Source: a virus
Direction: 5' to 3' (one strand)
Virus record (IMG/VR): IMGVR_UViG_3300025030_000210
Coordinates: 1-42,192 of that record
Length of the DNA stretch: 42,192 nucleotides
Of the stretch, positions 7,697 to 33,283 are shown piece by piece; positions within the stretch are counted from its first letter, which is position 1, and each line of letters begins with the position of its first letter. The notes under the pieces were generated by a model. It was not told where the DNA came from and searched no databases. It saw nothing but the letters and a program-made list of their open reading frames with translations. The translations under genes and the position numbers were made by a program.

Positions 7697-7719
7697 AGTT
7701 CATTAATTATTAATTAACT
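7697..7719. promoter_or_regulatory. 23-bp palindromic operator-like site (one mismatch)
   Basis: Left arm AGTTCATTAAT is intact; the right arm reads ATTAATTAACT, one base off. The site lies 45 bases upstream of the 64-residue gene and immediately after the structured RNA element. On the minus strand TTGAAA and TATTAT precede it within 30 bases, a weak promoter-like context. Confidence 0.65.
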
Positions 7720-7756
7720 CTTATAATATTAAAGTAAAGATTTCAATTAGCTACTT

Positions 7757-8109
7757 GCGTCTACTTATCATAGATAATGTATCTATCTACGCCTTCGCCA
7801 TTATGCCCCTATATTAATAGGGGTTGCAGGCGACAGGCTTCCACTTTCCTTGTCTTTATCCGCAGAATAGACCTGCAACCTGTACAGATACGGAGGAGGA
7901 ACTCACGTATCAGTGGTAATTCCCCTTCATTCTCTAGATCAATTTCAAAATCAGGTTTAAAACTAAGTAGAATCTACAGGGAGGATTTAGCTTTTTACCC
8001 CCCTAAATAACTTTATTTCAGTTTTGATTCAACCATTCTTATAAGGTTCTCAACTGTTTATTATTATCTTCGGAGATATTTAATTATCCTTTTAACCCTG
8101 TAGATTCTA
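7757..8109 (-). ncRNA. Putative structured noncoding RNA, anti-SD loop
   Basis: A gene-free stretch with many nested inverted repeats. 7968-7981 and 8096-8109 are a perfect 14-bp inverted repeat, extended by 7982-7986 with 8086-8090. Inside it are a hairpin 8065-8078 (TATCT/AGATA) and a two-part hairpin 8019-8056 (CAGTT/AACTG around AACC/GGTT). A second domain has 7822-7830 paired with 7872-7880 (9 bp), 7806-7812 with 7817-7823 (7 bp), 7770-7776 with 7780-7786 (7 bp) and 7887-7892 with 7906-7911 (6 bp). On the minus strand, the direction of surrounding genes, the loop of the last hairpin reads TGAGTTCCTCCTC, containing CCTCC, the complement of a Shine-Dalgarno sequence. Strand is inferred from context; ends are approximate. 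Confidence 0.5.
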
Positions 8110-8120
8110 ATTACCCTTGA

Positions 8121-8330
8121 TTATTCTGGAGGCGCTAACAAGTTAACTTCAGATTGTAATTCTGAAATTGTATTATTTAGTCCTCTAATCTCTGACTCAA
8201 GATCATCAATCCTATTTTCTAGCTTTTCAATCTCTGAGCCAAGATCTGCAATTTCTTCTTTAGCCTCACAAAGAGGACATTCTCTTGACTCATAACAAAT
8301 TTCTTCATGATCAGCACTACATAAATACAT
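8121..8330 (-). CDS. Zinc-knuckle coiled-coil small protein
   Basis: A 69-residue protein. The N-terminus has Cys4 and the CYESRECPLC pair, a likely zinc site, and residues about 22-65 form a heptad-patterned coiled coil (IADLGSEIEKLENRIDDLESEIRGL...). Small proteins of this layout are frequent in phage early operons; the function is unknown. A clear AAGGAG ribosome binding site lies 7 bases before ATG, immediately downstream of a terminator-like hairpin. Confidence 0.7.
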   Translation of the reverse strand: MYLCSADHEEICYESRECPLCEAKEEIADLGSEIEKLENRIDDLESEIRGLNNTISELQSEVNLLAPPE

Positions 8331-9021: not shown

Positions 9022-9757
9022 TTTTCACCATCTCTTTCTTTGCATTCTCCTCCTGCTTCTTAAGAAGAAGCTCCATAATAGAATTAAAATCATTAGGTAC
9101 AAAATCAGGTAGAAGTTTCTGTCTTCCCGATAAATTAGATCTGGCATTGTACAGTCCACTATTTACTGTCTGTAGAACATACTGTTGTTTATTATCCAAA
9201 TATCTTCTTTGAGAATAAAGGATTTCTCCAAAAAAAGATGGAAGAATAGTCTTAAGTGCTCCAGGTAATAAAGGATGGTATCCTATAATACTTCCTTCTC
9301 TGTCTTTATCTGCTTCAAGATGGGCAATAATTACCTTATATCCTACATAAGATAATATCCTTCTCATTTGATTTTCAACTAGAGTTCTAATCAATGAGTA
9401 ATGCACTTCAAACTTAGCCCCTCCAGCTTCATTCCTAGAAGGATTAATAGCAAGAGCCCTCTCCATTGCTACAGACTGAAAAGAGGTCATAGAATCTATA
9501 ATGATAGTCTTATGCTTTTTCTCTGTAAGAACTCTTGTTAAGTCTTTTTCGAACTTTATCCATCCTAAATTAGAAAAATCAAATTGCTCATACTCTACAT
9601 CCAGTCCTCTATACACAGTAGCTTGCTTATCAAAATCAAAGAGAAAAGCAGGAGTTGGAAAAGTTGCTGCAAAAAAAGATTTTCCTGTTCCTCTTTCTCC
9701 TACAACAAAGAAATTAATATTATCAACTGTAAGTTGAATATCTTTAGCGTTAGGCAT
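9008..9757 (-). CDS. Sak4-like RecA-fold single-strand annealing ATPase
   Basis: A protein of about 249 residues beginning MPNAKDIQLTVDNINFFVVGERGTGKS. The Walker A motif GERGTGKS is at residues 20-27 and the Walker B stretch KTIIIDSM ends near residue 90. The size and layout fit the Sak4 / AAA_24 group of phage RecA-like recombinases, which anneal DNA with the help of an SSB. I chose ATG 9757 over an upstream in-frame codon because GGAG lies 8 bases before it and it overlaps the upstream stop. The partner SSB-like gene follows. Confidence 0.8.
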   Translation of the reverse strand: MPNAKDIQLTVDNINFFVVGERGTGKSFFAATFPTPAFLFDFDKQATVYRGLDVEYEQFDFSNLGWIKFEKDLTRVLTEKKHKTIIIDSMTSFQSVAMERALAINPSRNEAGGAKFEVHYSLIRTLVENQMRRILSYVGYKVIIAHLEADKDREGSIIGYHPLLPGALKTILPSFFGEILYSQRRYLDNKQQYVLQTVNSGLYNARSNLSGRQKLLPDFVPNDFNSIMELLLKKQEENAKKEMVKIAST

Positions 9758-10100
9758 CTTTTTTCTCCGCTTCTTGAAGCATAAAAGGAGCAAACTTAAG
9801 TTTTAAATCTTCTAATTCTTTCTTAACTTTATCTCTTTCACTCTCTGCTTCAAATGCTCTGGAGGCCATTTTAGATAGATCTTCTAATGCACTAAACTCT
9901 TTAGAAGGATTTACAATCAATCTGTTACTATTTATGAGTGAGATATTAATTGGATCTTCTGTTTGTGTATAAGTAGTCTTAGACCCATACCCATTTTCCT
10001 TACATATTACTGCCTTCTCTAGTAAGGCAACTAATTGTCCAGCCTCTGGTGACATAGGTACTACCAGATGGCTATAATTTACACTTATTACAAAGTGCAT
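9750..10100 (-). CDS. Hypothetical protein, coiled-coil C-terminus
   Basis: A 116-residue protein of unknown family. It begins with a beta-rich segment (MHFVISVNYSHLVVPMSPEAGQ region) and ends with a charged helix (SERDKVKKELEDLKLKFAP). It has a GGGGAG ribosome binding site and lies in the recombination cluster between the Sak4-like and nuclease genes. Confidence 0.65.
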   Translation of the reverse strand: MHFVISVNYSHLVVPMSPEAGQLVALLEKAVICKENGYGSKTTYTQTEDPINISLINSNRLIVNPSKEFSALEDLSKMASRAFEAESERDKVKKELEDLKLKFAPFMLQEAEKKDA

Positions 10101-10102
10101 TT

Positions 10103-10255
10103 TTACTCCCCTTTCTGTAAAAATTTTAAGATATTATTAAGGTTTTCTTTTATATTTTCTAATTTTTCTATATTTTTAGATATAACTCTGTTATAGTCTC
10201 TAATTTCTCTTCTCATATTATGACGTCTTTCTCGGTTGAGGATAGACTTGATCAT
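10103..10255 (-). CDS. Small basic coiled-coil protein
   Basis: A 50-residue frame, MIKSILNRERRHNMRREIRDY..., very basic at the front and a lysine/glutamate coiled coil behind. It overlaps the upstream stop in ATGA and its own end (AAAGGGGAGTAA) supplies the ribosome binding site of the next gene, so it is well supported as a gene. The function is unknown; nucleic-acid binding is possible from charge. Confidence 0.65.
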   Translation of the reverse strand: MIKSILNRERRHNMRREIRDYNRVISKNIEKLENIKENLNNILKFLQKGE

Positions 10256-10578
10256 TTCTTTTCAAGAATATCTTTAATTACTCTAGAGATAGATATATCC
10301 CCCAAAGCATCAGCCTCATTTAAAAGTTTTATTTGATCTATATTAGAAAGAGATTGAACATACTGTTTAAAAAACAGTAAGGGTTTTCTTTCTTGAACTA
10401 GCATTCTTTTAAAAAGATATTTTGCTTTATCTAATATAACATCTATTAAGTCTAAACTCTCATTATCACTTAAGTATTCTAGAAAACAGAAGGTTTTATT
10501 GTTGATATTAAGTTTGACTTTTAATAAAGATGTATTTCCCTCTCTTGTTACTTCTAGGAAGCAGTTTATATTATTCAT
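10252..10578 (-). CDS. Hypothetical protein
   Basis: A 108-residue protein with no family I recognise. The first half looks beta-rich (FLEVTREGNTSLLKVKLNI), the second helical (IDQIKLLNEADALGDISISRVIKDILEKK). It overlaps the nuclease stop by 8 bases and the following small gene by 4, so it is translated in a coupled chain. Confidence 0.65.
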   Translation of the reverse strand: MNNINCFLEVTREGNTSLLKVKLNINNKTFCFLEYLSDNESLDLIDVILDKAKYLFKRMLVQERKPLLFFKQYVQSLSNIDQIKLLNEADALGDISISRVIKDILEKK

Positions 10579-11443
10579 ATATCAGCCATTCTCTTTCTAC
10601 GAAGTGTTCCTGGGCATATTCCTCCGAGTAAAAGGGCATAGTGCATAAGTTTAAATACTTACACCTCCCATACTTTCCATAACAAGAATCAAATTCCATA
10701 GGAAAACTGTTCGTTTTATGAGCCTCTACTATTCTATAGGAGGTATTTATAATAGATTTATGCCATTCAGTATAATCAACATCACTAAAAATAGTAACTC
10801 CCCTATCATGCTGAATAGTAAGTCCACTTTTAAGATTTTTAAGGTAAACACAGTTTACATAGGCTATATTAGTAGGAATTGCAGACCTCTTACTTGCAAT
10901 CCAGCTATAGCCCAGAAATTGGGCACTTCTGTGTGCTTGTTCTTTTATAGCATTTAAACTATAAGATGTAGTCTTATCATCGAAAATAGCAATCTCTTCT
11001 CCGCTGTGGAGTTTACCTATACAGTCTACTTTTCCTGCAAAAGATACATCATAGTCATCTATTGTAACCAAAGGTTCGCTGAAATAATGTTCAACTTCTA
11101 TAGGCTCAATATCATCAGAAAAAGTTTCAAAATACTTCACAAAAGCAAGATAACAATTTTCAAAAGTTCTAAAGTCTTCTGGATCAAGGATATAATTAAA
11201 CGATAACTCTTTTTCCCATACCTCTAATCCATGCTTAAAAGCTTTAGACATTTTATTAGAGTGATCCACGCCCTCTTTAGTAAGCTTTCTATACATTTCA
11301 TGCAGGGCATGATATACCTTCCCGAAGATAAGAGGCTCTGCACCGTACCTGCTTTGCAGATGTCTAACATAGTTCCAATAATATTTCTTAGGGCAGGATG
11401 CGAAGGTACTACGCTTTGAATTATCAAGATTTATGTGGGGCAT
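10571..11443 (-). CDS. PD-(D/E)XK nuclease, RecB/Cas4-like
   Basis: A 290-residue nuclease. The PD-(D/E)XK active site is visible as AGKVDCIG with Asp140, IFDDKTT with Asp155 and Lys157, and the QFLGY motif with Gln175. Cys17 in FASCPKKYY and the C-terminal pair in CYGKYGRCKYLNLC are placed as in Cas4/AddB-type nucleases with an iron-sulfur cluster. It sits with Sak4-like and SSB-like genes, so a role in phage recombination or end processing is likely. No Cas genes are present, so this is not a CRISPR Cas4. Confidence 0.88.
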   Translation of the reverse strand: MPHINLDNSKRSTFASCPKKYYWNYVRHLQSRYGAEPLIFGKVYHALHEMYRKLTKEGVDHSNKMSKAFKHGLEVWEKELSFNYILDPEDFRTFENCYLAFVKYFETFSDDIEPIEVEHYFSEPLVTIDDYDVSFAGKVDCIGKLHSGEEIAIFDDKTTSYSLNAIKEQAHRSAQFLGYSWIASKRSAIPTNIAYVNCVYLKNLKSGLTIQHDRGVTIFSDVDYTEWHKSIINTSYRIVEAHKTNSFPMEFDSCYGKYGRCKYLNLCTMPFYSEEYAQEHFVEREWLIYE

Positions 11444-11718
11444 TATAACTCACACCTTTCTGTTAGATCTCTAATGTGACTATTAAAAGTGATTATTATC
11501 TCATTTATATCATTCAACTTAGAGGCTAAAGGTACAAATGATAAAGAATTTGCACCTTTTAACGTTACCTCATTACTCTCTTCTCTAAGAGATGATTTTA
11601 ACCTATCACTTAAACTAGAAAGACTTTGTTTCATCATATCTAATGAACAATCTATTCTTTTTAGTTGTTCCACAATTTGAGACTCTTTATGAGTTGGGAC
11701 TAGCAAATCTTTGCTCAT
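11443..11718 (-). CDS. Hypothetical coiled-coil protein
   Basis: About 91 residues from MSKDLLVPTHKESQIVEQLKR, with heptad-like helices near 15-45 and 65-90. I chose ATG 11718 because it overlaps the upstream stop in ATGA and has GGAAG 7 bases before it; a longer frame starts four codons earlier. It has no recognised family. It overlaps the nuclease start (TAATG). Confidence 0.6.
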   Translation of the reverse strand: MSKDLLVPTHKESQIVEQLKRIDCSLDMMKQSLSSLSDRLKSSLREESNEVTLKGANSLSFVPLASKLNDINEIIITFNSHIRDLTERCEL

Positions 11719-12110
11719 AGCATCTTCCATTCTTTAATAAAGTTTTCTAATTTTTCACAGGGCGGTATTCCGGTAAATGTTCTTTTAAGATTTTTAATTT
11801 TCTCGGCTTGGTCATTAATTCGTCCCCTACTTGTTCCAGTTTGAATAAGTTTTCTGAGAATAGATAACTCTATCTCCGTTAACTGTTCTAGTTTAGGAAC
11901 TGATCCTTTTTTAACATAATACTGAGGCTTATGTCTTCCAAGTCGAATAACTAAAGAATCTTCAAGATAGTATTCTAGCAAGGTATAATCTTCTATTTCA
12001 TTATAGTCATCTGTGTTGATAATCATATGAGGGTAAGATGGTAGGTGTCCTCCAAGTTGGTGGCGGGGATGTGGTGTTCTAGTTAAACTACGTCCCCTTA
12101 AATAGTTCAT
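11715..12110 (-). CDS. Hypothetical protein, paralogue of the 14,283 gene
   Basis: Up to 131 residues. Residues about 44-70 (LLEYYLEDSLVIRLGRHKPQ then YYVKKGSV) align with the product of 14,283-14,657 (AQYYEQDTLVIRIGSYAPHYFVKIGAV), so the two are paralogues. No function is known. The first ATG lies inside the 23-bp palindrome at 12,104 and lacks a ribosome binding site; ATG 12,026 (MIINTDDYN) is the next choice. The leading part (RSLTRTPHPRHQLGG) looks unlike a conserved protein, which favours the later start. Confidence 0.6.
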   Translation of the reverse strand: MNYLRGRSLTRTPHPRHQLGGHLPSYPHMIINTDDYNEIEDYTLLEYYLEDSLVIRLGRHKPQYYVKKGSVPKLEQLTEIELSILRKLIQTGTSRGRINDQAEKIKNLKRTFTGIPPCEKLENFIKEWKML

Positions 12111-12126
12111 TAATAATTAATATTCT
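12104..12126. promoter_or_regulatory. 23-bp operator-like site, one arm decayed
   Basis: The plus-strand arm AGTTCATTAAT is intact, followed by A and ATTAATATTCT, which diverges in its outer five bases. It directly follows the structured RNA element on the minus strand and contains the first ATG of the downstream gene. Flanks (AAATAG on the outer side) match those of other copies. Confidence 0.6.
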
Positions 12127-12130
12127 TTAA

Positions 12131-12398
12131 TGGAATTACTGAAGCTCTTAAAGAGTCAAAACTAATATAACTGTCTGGAGGACTTTAAAATTAGCTTTGG
12201 TGGAATACCCTTTAAGAACTTCAGTAAGTCCACTAAAGGAAGACAAGTGAATATCCAACCTATAATCAGTTGGTGCTATCGTATTCTGTTATCCTTGTCT
12301 TCAATATAGTAGACTTACTGTGCTACGGATTATGAGAAGACCAACTACTTTTGGGTGTCTGGTGAGTTGGAAACCAGCTAATTTCCTGATGGAAATTA
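12131..12398 (-). ncRNA. Putative structured noncoding RNA, multi-stem
   Basis: A gene-free stretch with long nested stems. 12139-12153 pairs with 12210-12224 (15 positions), 12222-12235 with 12307-12320 (14), 12239-12247 with 12294-12302 (9), 12249-12253 with 12282-12286 and 12255-12259 with 12269-12273 (5 each), 12341-12346 with 12365-12370 (6), and 12379-12386 with 12391-12398 (8). In the first two stems the single imperfect position is a G-U pair if the minus strand is transcribed but a C-A mismatch on the plus strand, so the sequence itself favours a minus-strand RNA. The loop under the first stem contains GTCCTCCAGAC, again with CCTCC. Ends are approximate; the 8-bp hairpin overlaps the upstream stop codon. 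Confidence 0.55.
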
Positions 12399-12758
12399 AT
12401 CTATCTTTTTTCCAAGCTTGGCAAAGATGGCAATAGCTGCTGTTTGTTCCTCTGGAGTTAACAGGGAAATTGCAGACTTAATCTGAGATACAGATACCTT
12501 GTCTCCACCACCTGTTCTCTCTGACCACTTACCTTCCTTAAGATTTGTCCAGGTAGATACAATTGCATCGTATGCTTCCTGTCCCTTGCAACCAGCAGCT
12601 GAATCTCCAACTTTAGCGTTCATACCATGCATGAGAAGCTTATGGCGATTACCTTCAGAAATCTCATTAATATCACAACGAATTGGTTCAAATCCCGCTA
12701 CCTGAAACAGAATAGCATTTTCACCATCTTTAACTCTTCCTAGTGTCTTTACACTCAT
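12396..12758 (-). CDS. Conserved phage protein, paralogue of the 18,840 gene
   Basis: A 120-residue protein. Its middle (AAGCKGQEAYDA) and end (DKVSVSQIKSAISLLTPEEQT then AIFAKLGKKID) align with the protein at 18,840-19,310 (YGCKQTRNDRYAG and DKVSVKALTTSTLLSDEEKT, ILAKLGKV). The function is unknown. The start has AAGGAG about 10 bases upstream and overlaps the ribbon-helix-helix gene by 29 bases, suggesting coupled expression. Its stop codon is inside the first hairpin of the structured RNA. Confidence 0.7.
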   Translation of the reverse strand: MSVKTLGRVKDGENAILFQVAGFEPIRCDINEISEGNRHKLLMHGMNAKVGDSAAGCKGQEAYDAIVSTWTNLKEGKWSERTGGGDKVSVSQIKSAISLLTPEEQTAAIAIFAKLGKKID

Positions 12759-12900
12759 TTTGACTCATCTCCTTATTTAAAAATTCTTTAACTGCACTAT
12801 TAATAGCTCTATCTATAGATACACTGTGCAGTGTAGTATATTCTATAAGATTTAAGTAGGTATCTACGTCTAATTTTGCCTGAACGTGTTTATAGCTCAC
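12730..12900 (-). CDS. Ribbon-helix-helix (CopG/Arc-type) DNA-binding protein
   Basis: A 56-residue GTG-started gene with GGAGG 9 bases upstream. The sequence VQAKLDVDTYLNLIEYTTLH then SVSIDRAINSAVKEFLNKEM follows the RHH pattern: a beta-strand with alternating residues (HVQAKLDV), a helix, a short SVS turn and a second helix ending KEFL. RHH dimers bind palindromes or repeats and commonly regulate their own gene. Direct repeats of AAAACATTAAT lie immediately upstream. It is the clearest small DNA-binding regulator in the early block and a candidate for the dispersed operators, which is inference. Confidence 0.7.
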   Translation of the reverse strand: MSYKHVQAKLDVDTYLNLIEYTTLHSVSIDRAINSAVKEFLNKEMSQNECKDTRKS

Positions 12901-12915
12901 ATATTATATCCTCCA

Positions 12916-12949
12916 AAAACATTAATAATGATTCAATGAAAACATTAAT
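12916..12949. repeat. Direct repeats upstream of the RHH gene
   Basis: AAAACATTAAT occurs at 12916-12926 and again at 12939-12949, 23 bases apart, i.e. about two helical turns. The first copy abuts the ribosome binding site of the ribbon-helix-helix gene. CATTAAT is also the core of the 23-bp palindrome, so the two site types may be related. A role as an autoregulatory operator is inferred. Confidence 0.5.
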
Positions 12950-12998
12950 TATATTGTATTAATACAAAATTTTTAAAATTTCAACTTTTCTGTGTAAA

Positions 12999-13223
12999 TT
13001 ATTTTAATAGGGCATTATCGGACAGAAAAAGAACATTTCCAACAATAGGACGTCCTGCTATAAACGAAGCCTCTTTATTTTTTGTCAGCTTAAGTCTTAT
13101 GCCATATTCATTTACTATCATCTGAGCACCAGACTGTAGCTGAATTAATTCTATATAGCCTCCTACATATTCTTGCATCTCTTTTAAAGTAGGTTCTTTG
13201 TCTGAAATATATTTTACGCTCAT
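12999..13223 (-). CDS. DUF3846-like small protein
   Basis: A 74-residue protein whose pattern GGYIELIQLQSGAQMIVNEYG...LTKNKEASFIAGRPIVGNVLFL matches DUF3846 (a GGYIE strand, a MIVNE-G strand, an N-x-x-A helix and a final IVGNVLF strand). This small domain is common in phages and plasmids and has no known function. The start overlaps the upstream stop in TAATG with GGAGAAATTG before it. Confidence 0.65.
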   Translation of the reverse strand: MSVKYISDKEPTLKEMQEYVGGYIELIQLQSGAQMIVNEYGIRLKLTKNKEASFIAGRPIVGNVLFLSDNALLK

Positions 13224-13684
13224 TACAATTTCTCCAGAATAAGATTTTCTTCAGGGGTAATACTATCTCCTAATGCCTGTCTAATTTCGTTTTTAGAGTA
13301 GCCTTCAGCTAACAGAATATTTATTTGAGCTTTTCTGGTATGTTTAGATTTGACCATAAGCCTTAAAGCTTTTTCTTTATTATGTTTTTCTTTAATATAA
13401 GCTATATCTTCTATTTTTTCTGAGCGTCCAATTGTTAAGTATAATATACCAGATTTACTGGTACTGTATACTTTAAGTCCGTGATATATAGATTTATCAA
13501 AGGAAGTCTCCATCTCTCTTATAATCTCTTTTCCTAGATAAACATAATATGTTCTTTCTACGTTATGTTTCATAGGAATAAATAAAGTGTGATCTTTGTT
13601 CATCTTAGCAGCTGTATCCAGCCACATGAACATTAACCTTCTTTTTTCTGAGAGTCTCCATTCCTGCCTATTTTTCCTGCCCAT
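13223..13684 (-). CDS. Hypothetical basic protein, possible C-terminal HTH
   Basis: A 153-residue protein, strongly basic. The C-terminal 50 residues (KHTRKAQINILLAEGYSKNEIRQALG) look like a helix-turn-helix of the kind that follows a long basic linker; the front half looks beta-rich (LFIPMKHNVERTYYVYLGKE). No family is recognised. It begins inside the 3' end of the sigma factor gene (52-base overlap in another frame), so the two are probably co-translated. Confidence 0.6.
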   Translation of the reverse strand: MGRKNRQEWRLSEKRRLMFMWLDTAAKMNKDHTLFIPMKHNVERTYYVYLGKEIIREMETSFDKSIYHGLKVYSTSKSGILYLTIGRSEKIEDIAYIKEKHNKEKALRLMVKSKHTRKAQINILLAEGYSKNEIRQALGDSITPEENLILEKL

Positions 13685-16045: not shown

Positions 16046-16068
16046 AGTATATTAATGATTAATGAACT
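16046..16068. promoter_or_regulatory. 23-bp operator-like site (two mismatches in one arm)
   Basis: Left arm AGTATATTAAT (two differences), centre G, right arm ATTAATGAACT intact. It overlaps the stop codon of the upstream gene and lies just ahead of the ribosome binding site of the next one. Its minus-strand flank TTGAAATAG matches the flank of the 1,397 site. Confidence 0.65.
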
Positions 16069-18028: not shown

Positions 18029-18065
18029 ATTTAATGAACTGTTGAACTCTTAAGAGTTCATTAAT
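18029..18065. promoter_or_regulatory. Paired 23-bp-site half-sites, outward orientation
   Basis: TTTAATGAACT at 18030-18040 and AGTTCATTAAT at 18055-18065 face away from each other, opposite to the arrangement in the full palindrome. Between and across them lies a perfect 18-bp palindrome, TGAACTCTTAAGAGTTCA, at 18043-18060. The site may bind the same protein in a different arrangement. Confidence 0.55.
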
Positions 18066-18165
18066 AATTTTTGTTACTGGTAATTACTAAGAGTAATTGT
18101 TATATATACTATGTTGTTTTTTTATACATATATTATTATATATATATATATTTATTTTTATGTAA

Positions 18166-18203
18166 TTTTAATGAACTCTTGAAAATTAGCAGTTCATTAA
18201 TTT
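18166..18203. promoter_or_regulatory. Paired 23-bp-site half-sites, outward orientation
   Basis: TTTTAATGAACT (18166-18177) and AGTTCATTAATTT (18191-18203) again point outward with 13 bases between them, directly within the TA-rich stretch. This repeats the layout of the pair at 18,029, which makes chance unlikely. Confidence 0.55.
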
Positions 18204-18287
18204 ATATATAGATATATATATTATATAATAAAAACTGTACAAAACACCTAGAAATTTTCCAATTTTACTGGAATAATGCAATGTAAC

Positions 18288-18334
18288 AGTTGATTAATTA
18301 TTAATGAACTATTTGAAATTAAAAGTTGATTAAA
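18288..18334. promoter_or_regulatory. 23-bp operator-like site plus an extra half-site
   Basis: AGTTGATTAAT, T, ATTAATGAACT at 18288-18310 is a full site with one mismatch. A further half-site, AGTTGATTAAA, lies 13 bases on at 18324-18334. Confidence 0.6.
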
Positions 18335-18430
18335 CCGGACATACCAGGTCGCCCCAAACCCTTTTTACATGGAATCATGAACAAATCATAACCAATGTCG
18401 TTGCGGCATGTTATGGCACGAATTAAAAAT

Positions 18431-18447
18431 ACGGCAATTAAAACCGC
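18431..18447. repeat. 17-bp ACGG...CCG motif
   Basis: ACGGCAATTAAAACCGC, a copy of the motif at 5,941 and 17,881-17,961 with one changed end base. Confidence 0.5.
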
Positions 18448-18463
18448 TTATGTGACCATCGGC

Positions 18464-18508
18464 ACACGTCAACGTATCAACACGTGTCACGACACGTCAA
18501 AACGTGTC
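18464..18508. repeat. ACACGT repeat cluster (iteron-like)
   Basis: Within 45 bases there are ACACGTCAA at 18464-18472, the self-complementary ACACGTGT at 18480-18487, ACACGTCAA again at 18492-18500, and ACGTGTC at 18502-18508. The last two form a perfect inverted repeat (GACACGT, CAAA, ACGTGTC). Such clusters next to AT-rich DNA are typical binding sites for a replication initiator, but no initiator gene is recognised in the window. Confidence 0.5.
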
Positions 18509-18530
18509 CTATGGCATCCTATTGCGTTTT

Positions 18531-18547
18531 ACGGGTATTTTACCGGT
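18531..18547. repeat. 17-bp ACGG...CCGGT motif (diverged)
   Basis: ACGGGTATTTTACCGGT keeps the ACGG and CCG ends of the 17-bp motif with a changed core. It is the weakest of the six copies. Confidence 0.35.
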
Positions 18548-18583
18548 ACCACATCGCCCATGTGGAATGGGTGAAATACCAAT

Positions 18584-18625
18584 AAAAAAAGCTGGTAACA
18601 ACACGATTAAGTGTCATTACCAGCT
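18584..18625 (-). terminator. Intrinsic terminator for the minus-strand island
   Basis: 18590-18598 (AGCTGGTAA) pairs with 18617-18625 (TTACCAGCT), with an inner ACAC/GTGT stem. On the minus strand the hairpin is followed by seven T (18584-18590). This is a textbook Rho-independent terminator for transcripts coming from the genes at 18,668-19,633, separating them from the main early operon. A second small hairpin (GTGTCC/GGACAC, 18633-18652) precedes it. Confidence 0.8.
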
Positions 18626-18667
18626 GTGTGCTGTGTCCTTGTGGGTGGACACGTTACCTTGCCAGTG

Positions 18668-19420: not shown

Positions 19421-19633
19421 TTATATGGGATAAGGTGTATCGGTTAGTTTACAATATTCAGTAAGTGCTGTCTTAGCTTTGATTCTACGTACTTCATCTC
19501 CGGACAGGATATTGTATCCTATATCGTTACACAGGTACGATATTATTCTTCTGTGTACTGCATCCTTTGCCATTGTCTGCATCTTGTACCCTTTGTACGC
19601 TTCGTACCACTTAATCATGTCCTTTGTTGTCAT
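19421..19633 (-). CDS. Hypothetical protein, paralogue of the 16,326 gene
   Basis: A 70-residue protein (MTTKDMIKWYEAYKGYKMQT...) similar along its length to the 16,326 gene product. GGAGG lies 8 bases before ATG. It is the first gene of the small minus-strand island; the 110 bases between it and the next gene hold only short palindromes (GTATGGG/CCCATAC at about 19,332-19,350 and GTACC/GGTAC nearby), perhaps a second control point. Confidence 0.7.
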   Translation of the reverse strand: MTTKDMIKWYEAYKGYKMQTMAKDAVHRRIISYLCNDIGYNILSGDEVRRIKAKTALTEYCKLTDTPYPI

Positions 19634-20169: not shown

Positions 20170-20192
20170 ACATTATTAATGATTAATGAACT
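20170..20192. promoter_or_regulatory. 23-bp operator-like site at the head of the late block
   Basis: The right arm ATTAATGAACT (20182-20192) is intact; the left arm ACATTATTAAT keeps its inner six bases. The longest frame of the small terminase gene starts at the ATG inside the right arm. Confidence 0.6.
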
Positions 20193-22046: not shown

Positions 22047-23392
22047 TACATATTAAAGCTTCTACTCAACAACTAATTGATGAAGTCAGGGGATTTCGTA
22101 AGGGTGGAGATAAGATTCACACCAGAAGCCTCCCTGAAGTCTCCCAAGATAGGATGATAGATGTCTGTTATTGGCTATGGGACAATTATCCTATGGCTAA
22201 ATGGATTATAAATGTTATTGTAAGCTTCATAGTAGCTGAAGAGTTACCTTTTGAGTCCAATAATCCTAAAATCGTAGAGATTTTGAAGAGTTTTTGGTTC
22301 GATCCAGTAAACAGGATGGATCTTTACTTGCGTAAACATGTAACTGAGCTTCATATTTTTGGGGATATATTCTTTCCTGTGCAGGTTTCGCCTGTAAATG
22401 GTAGAGTTAGAATGGGATATATTGACCCTAAAGAGATAGAATCTGTTGTAACAGATCCTGAAAACTGTAAGATTAAAATAGGAATAATTAGAAGAACCGA
22501 TCCTGGAGATACTCCAAAGAAATATAAAATTATTCTTGAAAAAGACATTGTTAATTTCCTTAGTCCCGCTGCTAAAGCATTAAGAGCTTCTTTTACTACA
22601 GGAGATTGTTTCTTTTTCTCTATTAATAATGTGACAAACTCCCCAAGAGGACGAAGTGAGCTACTTACAGTAGCAGATTGGATTGATACATACGAAAATT
22701 TTCTCTATGACTTTGCAGAAAAGTGGTCTCAAATGAATAATTTTGTTTGGGACTTAAAAATAAAAGATGCAGATGATAGTGTGGTAAGACAGAAAACTCA
22801 GGAATTTAATACTGCAAGCGGGAATCCAGGTAGTACTTATGGTCATAATGATTCAATAGAGGTAAGTGCTGTAGCTCCTGACTTAAAAAGCCTTGATGTT
22901 TCAACAGGGGCAAAGATATTCAGAGATCATATTCTTGGAGGAGTAGGTTTTCCTACTCATTGGTATGGCGGAGCAGAAGATGTTAATAAGTCATCTGCAG
23001 ACGAGATGATGACACCTACAATGAAAATTCTTACAGAGAAACAAAACTATTTTAAGTATATTCTCTCGAGTATTTTTGACTATCAAATCTTCTGTGCAAG
23101 GAAATTTAATAGATCTGCTTATGGAGACCTTAAAGATAGTGATATTAAATATACAATTATAACTCCCGAGCTAAGTACAAAAGACCTGAGTAAGTTCGGG
23201 GCAGTCATTAAGAATGTTGCAGACGGTTTTGCGGTTGCAGAAGATAGAAGTTGGCTGGATAAGGAGACAAGTCTTGAATATTTTGCACTTGTTATGGCTT
23301 TTCTAGGAAAGAAAGTAGATATAGAACAAGTCAAGGAACGACTAAAGTCTCAACCCAAGCCTAAACCTGTAGAACCAACAAAAGTTAATTAA
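22013..23392 (+). CDS. Portal protein
   Basis: A 459-residue portal, the dodecameric ring at the packaging vertex. Recognisable parts are RMIDVCYWLWDNYPMAKWII near the front, ELHIFGDIFFPVQVSPVNGR and IDPKEIESVVTDPEN in the middle, and the long polar tail. The start is a TTG with GGAGG 6 bases upstream. Its stop codon lies inside a 23-bp operator-like site. Position after terL supports the call. Confidence 0.88.
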   Translation: MAEEKTSPASVVHIKASTQQLIDEVRGFRKGGDKIHTRSLPEVSQDRMIDVCYWLWDNYPMAKWIINVIVSFIVAEELPFESNNPKIVEILKSFWFDPVNRMDLYLRKHVTELHIFGDIFFPVQVSPVNGRVRMGYIDPKEIESVVTDPENCKIKIGIIRRTDPGDTPKKYKIILEKDIVNFLSPAAKALRASFTTGDCFFFSINNVTNSPRGRSELLTVADWIDTYENFLYDFAEKWSQMNNFVWDLKIKDADDSVVRQKTQEFNTASGNPGSTYGHNDSIEVSAVAPDLKSLDVSTGAKIFRDHILGGVGFPTHWYGGAEDVNKSSADEMMTPTMKILTEKQNYFKYILSSIFDYQIFCARKFNRSAYGDLKDSDIKYTIITPELSTKDLSKFGAVIKNVADGFAVAEDRSWLDKETSLEYFALVMAFLGKKVDIEQVKERLKSQPKPKPVEPTKVN

Positions 23393-23405
23393 TTATTAAT
23401 GAACT
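23383..23405. promoter_or_regulatory. 23-bp operator-like site (one mismatch)
   Basis: AGTTAATTAAT, T, ATTAATGAACT. It contains the TAA stop of the portal gene and marks the border before the capsid genes. Confidence 0.65.
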
Positions 23406-28642: not shown

Positions 28643-28665
28643 AGTTCATTAATAATTAATGAACT
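28643..28665. promoter_or_regulatory. 23-bp palindromic operator-like site (perfect)
   Basis: AGTTCATTAAT, A, ATTAATGAACT, perfect over both arms. It begins one base after the stop codon of the connector gene, and the ATG in its right arm (28659) is the first possible start of the next gene. Confidence 0.75.
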
Positions 28666-31549: not shown

Positions 31550-33266
31550 AGCAGGAGTAGATTCTGCAATTTCTGATTTCAAGAGATTGTCAGGTGCTGC
31601 TACTGCTGCAGGAAAGCCTATGGAGTCTATAGGGGGAACTCAACAACAGCAGAGAATGTCAGGACTTCATACGAGAATTACACAACTAACAGGAGCATTT
31701 AGAAAATTAGGAGTAGAACTTGAAACAATAGACCTGTATTTTATAAGTGGGTTTAAAGTTCTAGGTCTTTTTAAGCTTATAGATTTTACTAAGCAATCTA
31801 TCCTTCAAGCAGAAAACTATTCTAATGCTTTGCGTGGTATAGCTGCTATGGCTAGGTCTACTGGTGAAGAAGTGGAAACTGTTTTCCAGGCTATTAATAA
31901 ACTAGCAGAAGATGGTAGAATTCCTGTACAAGATTTAGCTGAAGCAATGAGAAACTTGCTTCCTAAGTATGGTTTAGCTGATTCAATAAAATTAATTGAA
32001 GCTATAAAGACAACAGGAACTGTTTTGGGTACTCAAGGAGGCATGCCTCAAGGAACAGCATTAAAAAGAGTAACACAAGGTGTAGCTCAATGGCTTTCTA
32101 CACTAACAGATGCTACACTCGTTACAAAAAATCTTGATATGATGGTGCAAGAATATGCCAATACTTTAAGAGTGAATGCTGATGCACTTGATGAAAATCA
32201 ACGGTATCATGCTGTATTATTGGGATTCTTAAAAGAAGCGTCTATTCTTTATGATGCTGAAGATCAAGCTATACAAGGTCTTACTGGTACACTGGCAAAA
32301 GATAATCAAGCTTTAATGGATTTTAAGAATGTATACGGTCAGACATTAGCACCAATGACTGTTGAAATAGTTGAAAATTTAACAGAGGGGATAAAACTTT
32401 TAGGAAAATTTTTAGCTGCTTTAGAAAAAGGTTTTCTGTCTTTAGGATATGGAGCTGAAATGGCTTTAATGAGAATTAAGGCTTTATTGAACTGGAAAAA
32501 TCTTTTTAAGTCTGGAGAAGATATAATAGCAGAACAAGCAGATGCTATGGAGTATATGAGAAAACAGTATGAGGAAGCCATTAAGGAAATAAATGCTAAA
32601 TATGGAGTAGGAAGTGTATTAAAGGGAGCACAGATTGAAATTTCTGCAAACTTTAAGCAGATAAAGCCTCCTGATATTGGAAATGTTTTTTCTGGTATAT
32701 CTTCAGGATATCCTTCTTTAGGAGGAACTCCTTGGTGGATGAAACAAGAAACTTTTACTGTAGATTTTGGAAAGATGATAGATTTAGCTAAGGCTAAAGA
32801 AGCAGAAGAAAATGCTAGAAAGATGGGGGAAAAAATTGCAACTGCTTTTAGTTATCCTCTAGAAAGAGGAATATCAGATGTATTTTTTAATCTGTTTGTA
32901 GGAGAAAAAGGCTCATTTATAGAGATGGCTCGAAATTTTGGAAAATCTCTTGCAAGAGCTATATCTGATGCTATGGCAGAAGCTATGATTGCTCCTGTTA
33001 AAAATTGGATGTCAGGATTATTTTCTGGTTTATTTAGTGCAGGAGGAGCAGCCCTTGGAGGGAGCATAGGAGGGGGATCTGTTTCTGGGGGAAGCATGAT
33101 TCCTGCAGGAGGATTAATGGGAGGATTTGGAGCTAGAGGAGGTATTAATATTAATGTAGGATCTGGATATACTCCTCGAGAAATAGGGGATATGGTAACG
33201 CAGAAGCTGCAAGAAGGGTATAGTAATAACTCTTCTATTAGAAAAGTTATAAAATCCCAAAGGTGA
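31494..33266 (+). CDS. Tape measure protein
   Basis: A 590-residue protein beginning AAEPLNLEFVIRAINEAKAG, with long helical stretches, hydrophobic segments near 95-115 and 290-320, and a Gly/Ser-rich end (AGGAALGGSIGGGSVSGGSM). Position after the chaperones fixes the call. At about 1.5 angstrom per residue the tail would be short for a siphovirus, roughly 90 nm. No peptidase or lysozyme motif is seen. The stop codon lies in a 23-bp operator-like site. Confidence 0.85.
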   Translation: MAAEPLNLEFVIRAINEAKAGVDSAISDFKRLSGAATAAGKPMESIGGTQQQQRMSGLHTRITQLTGAFRKLGVELETIDLYFISGFKVLGLFKLIDFTKQSILQAENYSNALRGIAAMARSTGEEVETVFQAINKLAEDGRIPVQDLAEAMRNLLPKYGLADSIKLIEAIKTTGTVLGTQGGMPQGTALKRVTQGVAQWLSTLTDATLVTKNLDMMVQEYANTLRVNADALDENQRYHAVLLGFLKEASILYDAEDQAIQGLTGTLAKDNQALMDFKNVYGQTLAPMTVEIVENLTEGIKLLGKFLAALEKGFLSLGYGAEMALMRIKALLNWKNLFKSGEDIIAEQADAMEYMRKQYEEAIKEINAKYGVGSVLKGAQIEISANFKQIKPPDIGNVFSGISSGYPSLGGTPWWMKQETFTVDFGKMIDLAKAKEAEENARKMGEKIATAFSYPLERGISDVFFNLFVGEKGSFIEMARNFGKSLARAISDAMAEAMIAPVKNWMSGLFSGLFSAGGAALGGSIGGGSVSGGSMIPAGGLMGGFGARGGININVGSGYTPREIGDMVTQKLQEGYSNNSSIRKVIKSQR

Positions 33267-33283
33267 TTAATCATTAATGAACT
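33261..33283. promoter_or_regulatory. 23-bp operator-like site (two mismatches in one arm)
   Basis: AGGTGATTAAT, C, ATTAATGAACT. The left arm contains the tape measure TGA stop and doubles as an AAGGTG ribosome binding site; the right arm contains the ATG of the next gene. Confidence 0.65.

Follow-up and report, generated by a model that had tools for sequence, protein, structure and literature searches.

Two competing hairpins in a gene-free gap between early genes of a little-known tailed phage: a candidate structured RNA

The gap between two leftward early genes of a little-known phage, whose lineage has almost no sequenced relatives, is the strongest-folding place in the 42-kb record analyzed here (hereafter the window, the whole stretch of 42,192 bases), and its structure is real and far beyond chance. 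The best reading of the region is a structured RNA of the minus strand, because the fold lies so far outside the random expectation, the minus-strand fold of its long hairpin (12125-12238) is 15.5 kcal/mol better than the plus-strand fold, minus-strand genes flank the region on both sides, and it matches no Rfam family. Positions 12125-12398 are tentatively considered to be an untranslated structured stretch of the leftward early transcript, whose long helix might serve as an RNase III-type cleavage site and/or protect the 3' end of the upstream message. The element itself is undescribed, its general type familiar; its one distinctive feature is the predicted strand exchange.

The source of the record is a tailed phage, and the sequence (GC content 35%) is possibly an incomplete piece of the virus genome. 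The sign of the GC skew switches near 20-21 kb, the point at which the two gene clusters diverge (Table 1). Searches of Pfam and PHROG returned no match for the product of the gene upstream of the gap, and the interval between its stop codon (12396-12398) and the ATG at 12110 contains no convincing gene; the sole candidate for a toxin reading frame in it was a 36-codon TTG-start frame (12148-12258, minus strand) without a recognisable ribosome-binding site. The first 28 codons of the downstream gene (12026-12110) are GC-rich (46%), encode unusual residues and are outscored in codon usage by 98.5% of gene segments. Translation may instead begin at the ATG at 12026, in which case the preceding part would be a leader containing two small hairpins; the ATG at 12110 sits inside a copy of a palindrome (12104-12126) that recurs in the window.

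Table 1. Positions of the genes, RNA elements and palindromes described in the text
Feature	Position	Strand	Remarks
Terminase and other structural genes	from 20.2 kb	plus	
DNA polymerase, Sak4-like annealing protein, PD-(D/E)XK exonuclease, DNA methylase, sigma-like factor, many unknown genes		minus	
Upstream gene	12396-12758	minus	120 aa, function unknown; stop codon opens the structured region
Downstream gene	11715-12110	minus	131 aa from ATG 12110, or shorter from ATG 12026; function unknown
8-bp hairpin	12379-12398	minus	UAAUUUCC-AUCA-GGAAAUUA; starts at the stop codon of the upstream gene; no U tract; mean pair probability 0.94
5-bp hairpin	12359-12377	minus	CUGGU/ACCAG; mean pair probability 0.68
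Hairpin I	12222-12320	minus	alternative state, first to form
Shared strand B	12222-12238	minus	partner is A in hairpin I and C (12125-12141) in hairpin II
Hairpin II	12125-12238	minus	final state; arms 12207-12238 and 12125-12156
Apical loop	12173-12183	minus	GUC-CUCCA-GAC, with exposed CCUCC
Palindrome AGTTCATTAATNATTAATGAACT	1397-1419, 7697-7719, 12104-12126, 16046-16068, 18288-18310, 20170-20192, 23383-23405, 28643-28665, 33261-33283		
Degenerate copy of AGTTCATTAATNATTAATGAACT	12104-12126		3 mismatches; has two bases in common with the foot of hairpin II

As minus-strand RNA, 12131-12398 folded to -81.4 kcal/mol, compared to -50.9 +/- 4.7 for 200 dinucleotide shuffles (z -6.5), and the plus-strand RNA had a z of -3.5. 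Inclusion of the natural foot (12125-12398) gave -85.6 kcal/mol on the minus strand (z -7.5), and the minus-strand segment at 12121 ranked first when 160-base segments of the whole window were folded on both strands. An earlier note on this DNA had described nested stems in a gene-free gap at 12131-12398. The stems are indeed present on the minus strand and the gap holds no convincing gene; the low end is actually at 12125, however, so that those coordinates drop the last six pairs, and the 14-bp and long stems both use 12222-12238, which means competition rather than nesting. The stem set proposed there represents one folding intermediate, with the long stem reduced to 15 bp. Its 14-bp stem is supported and has one G-U pair as claimed, whereas its 15-bp stem is a truncated form of the long one and, as delimited here, contains two G-U pairs instead of the single imperfect position reported.

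Hairpin II has as its core a helix of 31 bp, interrupted by a single mismatch, with a further 10 base pairs above it; its full architecture is 10 bp, one C-U mismatch, 21 bp, an internal loop, 10 bp (12190-12199 with 12157-12166), an apical 3-bp stem and the loop CUCCA. The 32-nt arms include three G-U pairs and one C-U mismatch. As minus-strand RNA, the hairpin has a minimum free energy of -51.0, against -17.9 +/- 3.1 for shuffles (z -10.7), and 12125-12238 is also the longest inverted repeat in the 42 kb (score 20, with 15 for the runner-up and 13-14 for shuffled maxima).

Hairpin I is built from strand A (12307-12320), which pairs with B at 12222-12235 (14 bp, one G-U), followed by a 9-bp stem between 12294-12302 (GAAGACAAG) and 12239-12247 (CUUGUCUUC) and an inner stem, CCAACU/GGUUGG (12268-12273 with 12255-12260). 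The segment 12222-12398, which contains hairpin I without strand C, had a z of -5.3, and none of 200 shuffles folded as well; since hairpin II alone is likewise extreme, each hairpin is non-random on its own. The two are mutually exclusive because both use strand B, and the inverted repeats I1 and I3 have bases of this strand in common. B:C pairing supplies the 16 outermost base pairs of the long helix and includes one G-U as well as a C-U mismatch. In the 5' to 3' order of the minus strand, the RNA consists of the 8-bp hairpin, the 5-bp hairpin, A, the 12302-12294 arm, CCAACU/GGUUGG, the 12247-12239 arm and B (12238-12222), and then the rest of the long arm (12221-12207), the loop region with the 10-bp stem, the returning arm (12156-12142) and C (12141-12125).

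The order of formation was examined with minimum-energy folds of growing prefixes of the minus-strand RNA, which is not a kinetic simulation. A:B was complete for transcripts ending from 12219 to 12149, 9 of its 14 pairs were left at 12129, and B:C had replaced it at 12119; the displacement follows synthesis of 12125-12134. When 12100-12398 was folded under constraint, forcing A:B gave -84.1 kcal/mol and the final state -90.7, which is 6.6 better. Within the long arm, the 15 inner base pairs can already form ahead of the exchange, in the fashion of toehold displacement. Computation shows that the structure exists, that it is not random, that two strands compete for B and that the hairpins arise in this order when prefixes are folded.

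Regarding the strand, the imperfections within the strand-symmetric repeats (32, 10 and 14 nt) provide a further hint. On the minus strand all five imperfections of the transition type read as G-U, whereas not one does so on the plus strand; an additional mismatch is C-U. Such a one-sided outcome has a two-sided fair-coin probability of 1/16 and favours RNA modestly; it is a hint only, because preferential C-to-T mutation on the coding strand of the minus-strand genes would push in the same direction. The earlier note had taken this pattern as what selection on a minus-strand RNA would leave: a structured RNA of that strand is the best reading, but as evidence of selection the bias is weak.

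Regarding function, no intrinsic terminator (a short G+C-rich hairpin followed by a T run) was found in 11900-13300, and therefore a single transcript may well carry the leftward genes across the gap. The element would then lie in a minus-strand transcript between the stop codon of the 120-aa gene and the promoter/operator-like palindrome. During transcription, hairpin I would form first, and the emerging strand C would extend the adjoining 15-bp helix, used as a foothold, and displace A to yield the near-perfect 31-bp helix. This helix may act on its own mRNA, either through an RNase III-type double-strand cut that divides the polycistronic transcript or, alternatively or additionally, by forming a block that shields the 3' end of the upstream message. 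Hairpin I may postpone the long stem until the polymerase has passed, as with the metastable hairpins of hok and aapA3. That the gap is transcribed, that the helix is cut and that the mRNA is affected are inferences, and this account, the favoured one, is put forward as quite possible rather than probable. The criterion for an RNase III site was a near-perfect intergenic stem of about 20 bp or more, and hairpin II offers 31 bp with one mismatch. Moreover, the two longest inverted repeats in the window (7964-8113 and 12125-12238) are both in sizeable gene-poor gaps of the leftward cluster, and each has a palindrome on its downstream side (7697 and 12104, respectively), a placement as expected for sites dividing one long early transcript. 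On the other side, hairpin I and the 8-bp hairpin exceed the needs of a cleavage site; a processing site directly ahead of the palindrome would be partly superfluous should a separate transcript begin there (12104-12126); and the repeat at 7964-8113, with a score of 15, only just tops the shuffled maxima of 13-14. If it is only a processing hairpin, the region would be an ordinary yet undescribed element.

Several known systems share features with this element. Transcripts of T7, T3 and lambda are cut by RNase III (PMC5371410). The early sites of these phages resemble the gap in having a long intergenic double-stranded stem within a one-directional early cluster and no terminators between genes, whereas the present element has a longer helix, extra stems and a competing upstream hairpin, and its cleavage is putative. 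The sib retroregulation element of lambda, located 3' of int, is a 3'-side hairpin whose final form is set by the extent of transcription. Similarly, the final form of hairpin II needs strand C, i.e., further transcription, but no terminator form is present and the neighbouring gene is unrelated. In the hok and aapA3 toxin mRNAs, a metastable hairpin arises co-transcriptionally and subsequently gives way to a more stable pairing (PMC6733600). Hairpin I behaves in the same way in prefix folding, but the phage element differs in that no toxin reading frame, antisense RNA or hidden ribosome-binding site was seen, and a hok-type or other type I toxin mRNA was rejected, as no small membrane-toxin frame exists inside the refolding RNA. 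GOLLD, ROOL and other ornate phage-associated Rfam RNAs are also non-coding structured RNAs in phage DNA; the element described here is far smaller and has no Rfam match at all.

An independent, trans-acting small RNA of about 270 nt from the minus strand, acting for example through its CCUCC loop on phage ribosome-binding sites, appears possible but unlikely. The region is compact, multi-stem and gene-free, and its loop is accessible: the CCUCC that the earlier note had regarded as exposed is present, with bases 12176-12180 unpaired at a probability of 1.0. The loop matches the ribosome-binding site in front of the gene that starts at 19633 perfectly over 9 nt, and over 8 nt GUCCUCCA in the loop is complementary to UGGAGGAC at 12047-12054. 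The action on ribosome-binding sites hinted at in that note did not stand out, however, as the predicted pairing between the loop and start regions in the phage was not clearly above that of shuffled loops keeping CCUCC, 23% of which matched the real loop for the best target and 10.5% for the best five. In addition, no dedicated promoter was seen directly upstream and no terminator at the end.

A DNA-level element or relic, in which the inverted repeat and a third copy of TTARTRGACTTACTG are bound by a phage protein, form part of an origin or are left over from an inverted duplication, is likewise unlikely. It would account for the three copies of this 14-18-nt unit in the region (two direct, one inverted), the strong DNA fold (z -8.0) and the adjoining palindromic site, but it is at odds with the G-U bias toward the minus strand, with the lack of any further occurrence of the 18-nt unit elsewhere in the window and with the absence of a GC-skew turn at the region. 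An insertion element or MITE was rejected, since the flanks of 12125-12238 (TAATATT and GAAGACA) contain no target-site duplication.

The adjoining palindrome, AGTTCATTAATNATTAATGAACT, is 23 bp long and has nine copies in the window with at most 3 mismatches (0 expected), which are nearly always just before or over gene starts on both gene strands, several of them including the ATG; no exact match was found in any IMG/VR contig. It is a probable phage promoter/operator, at 12104 for the next transcription unit, and probably the predicted binding site of a phage regulator. Its position bears on the idea of a cis switch in the leader of the downstream gene, in which the two states would alter access to the start region or GUCCUCCA would pair with its 8-nt complement at 12047-12054. 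Two mutually exclusive states, this complement, and the GC content and coding-poor codon usage of 12027-12110, which may be a leader, fit such a switch; nevertheless it seems improbable, as about one exact 8-nt complement is expected by chance in such a stretch (an estimate), the intervening palindrome resembles a transcription start and would put the RNA outside the leader, and neither state hides a clear ribosome-binding site or contains a terminator. Improbable as well is a new class of phage non-coding RNA with programmed strand exchange, in which hairpin I would form co-transcriptionally, the 15-bp foothold would let C displace A, and the RNA would report the distance or speed of the polymerase at an operon boundary. 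Should the strand exchange prove genuine, two phage transcription units would be separated by a naturally occurring toehold-displacement RNA, which would also offer a simple model for co-transcriptional folding.

The leftward cluster has a second structured gene-poor gap (7720-8120, minus strand), directly upstream of the palindrome copy at 7697-7719. Its minus-strand fold at 7955-8115 had a z of -5.5, its inverted repeat (7964-8113) is followed by GC-rich hairpins (7720-7954, z -2.5), and no Rfam match was found in the gap. Similarity of the 12.1-kb element to this gap (7697-8125) or to other gaps was at chance level only, and the two structured gaps are not homologous. In another non-coding, repeat-rich stretch (18330-18640), several ACGTGT/ACACGT units lie at 18460-18510 and a strong terminator of the minus strand at 18625-18590; the stretch adjoins AT-rich DNA with palindrome fragments (18050-18310) and looks like a control or replication-origin region.

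Comparison with the 4227 families of Rfam 15 at gathering thresholds returned no match in the window, in agreement with the earlier note, which had recognised no known family. At a loose threshold, only eukaryotic miRNA, snoRNA and U4 models appeared, far below their cut-offs (MIR1512, 33.3 of 79 bits); these were rejected as family members, as such scores reflect hairpin shape. No homologue of the region or of the two flanking proteins was found in viral, genome, phage and plasmid collections, and a BLAST comparison of the gap with phages and plasmids yielded nothing beyond short, chance-level matches (E 0.3-1). Viral contigs were queried with both flanking proteins, the exonuclease, DNA polymerase, terminase, portal, a 345-aa structural protein and the palindrome, and bacterial genome contigs, queried with the DNA polymerase and a terminase alignment, had no matches. 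The exonuclease detected two distant viral contigs (25% identity), neither of which matched the gap. The one close relative, IMGVR_UViG_3300044960_000665 (24 kb; terminase 64% and portal 71% identical), covers the structural half only, without the early module and this region. At 9300-10830, beside its small terminase gene, this contig carries two genes with almost identical leaders in front of them (GGATTCTGAAAACCTGTGTCGGAATCTC / GGATTCTGAAACCTGTGCCAGAATCC), both of which end in a strong ribosome-binding site and may represent a repeated regulatory leader.
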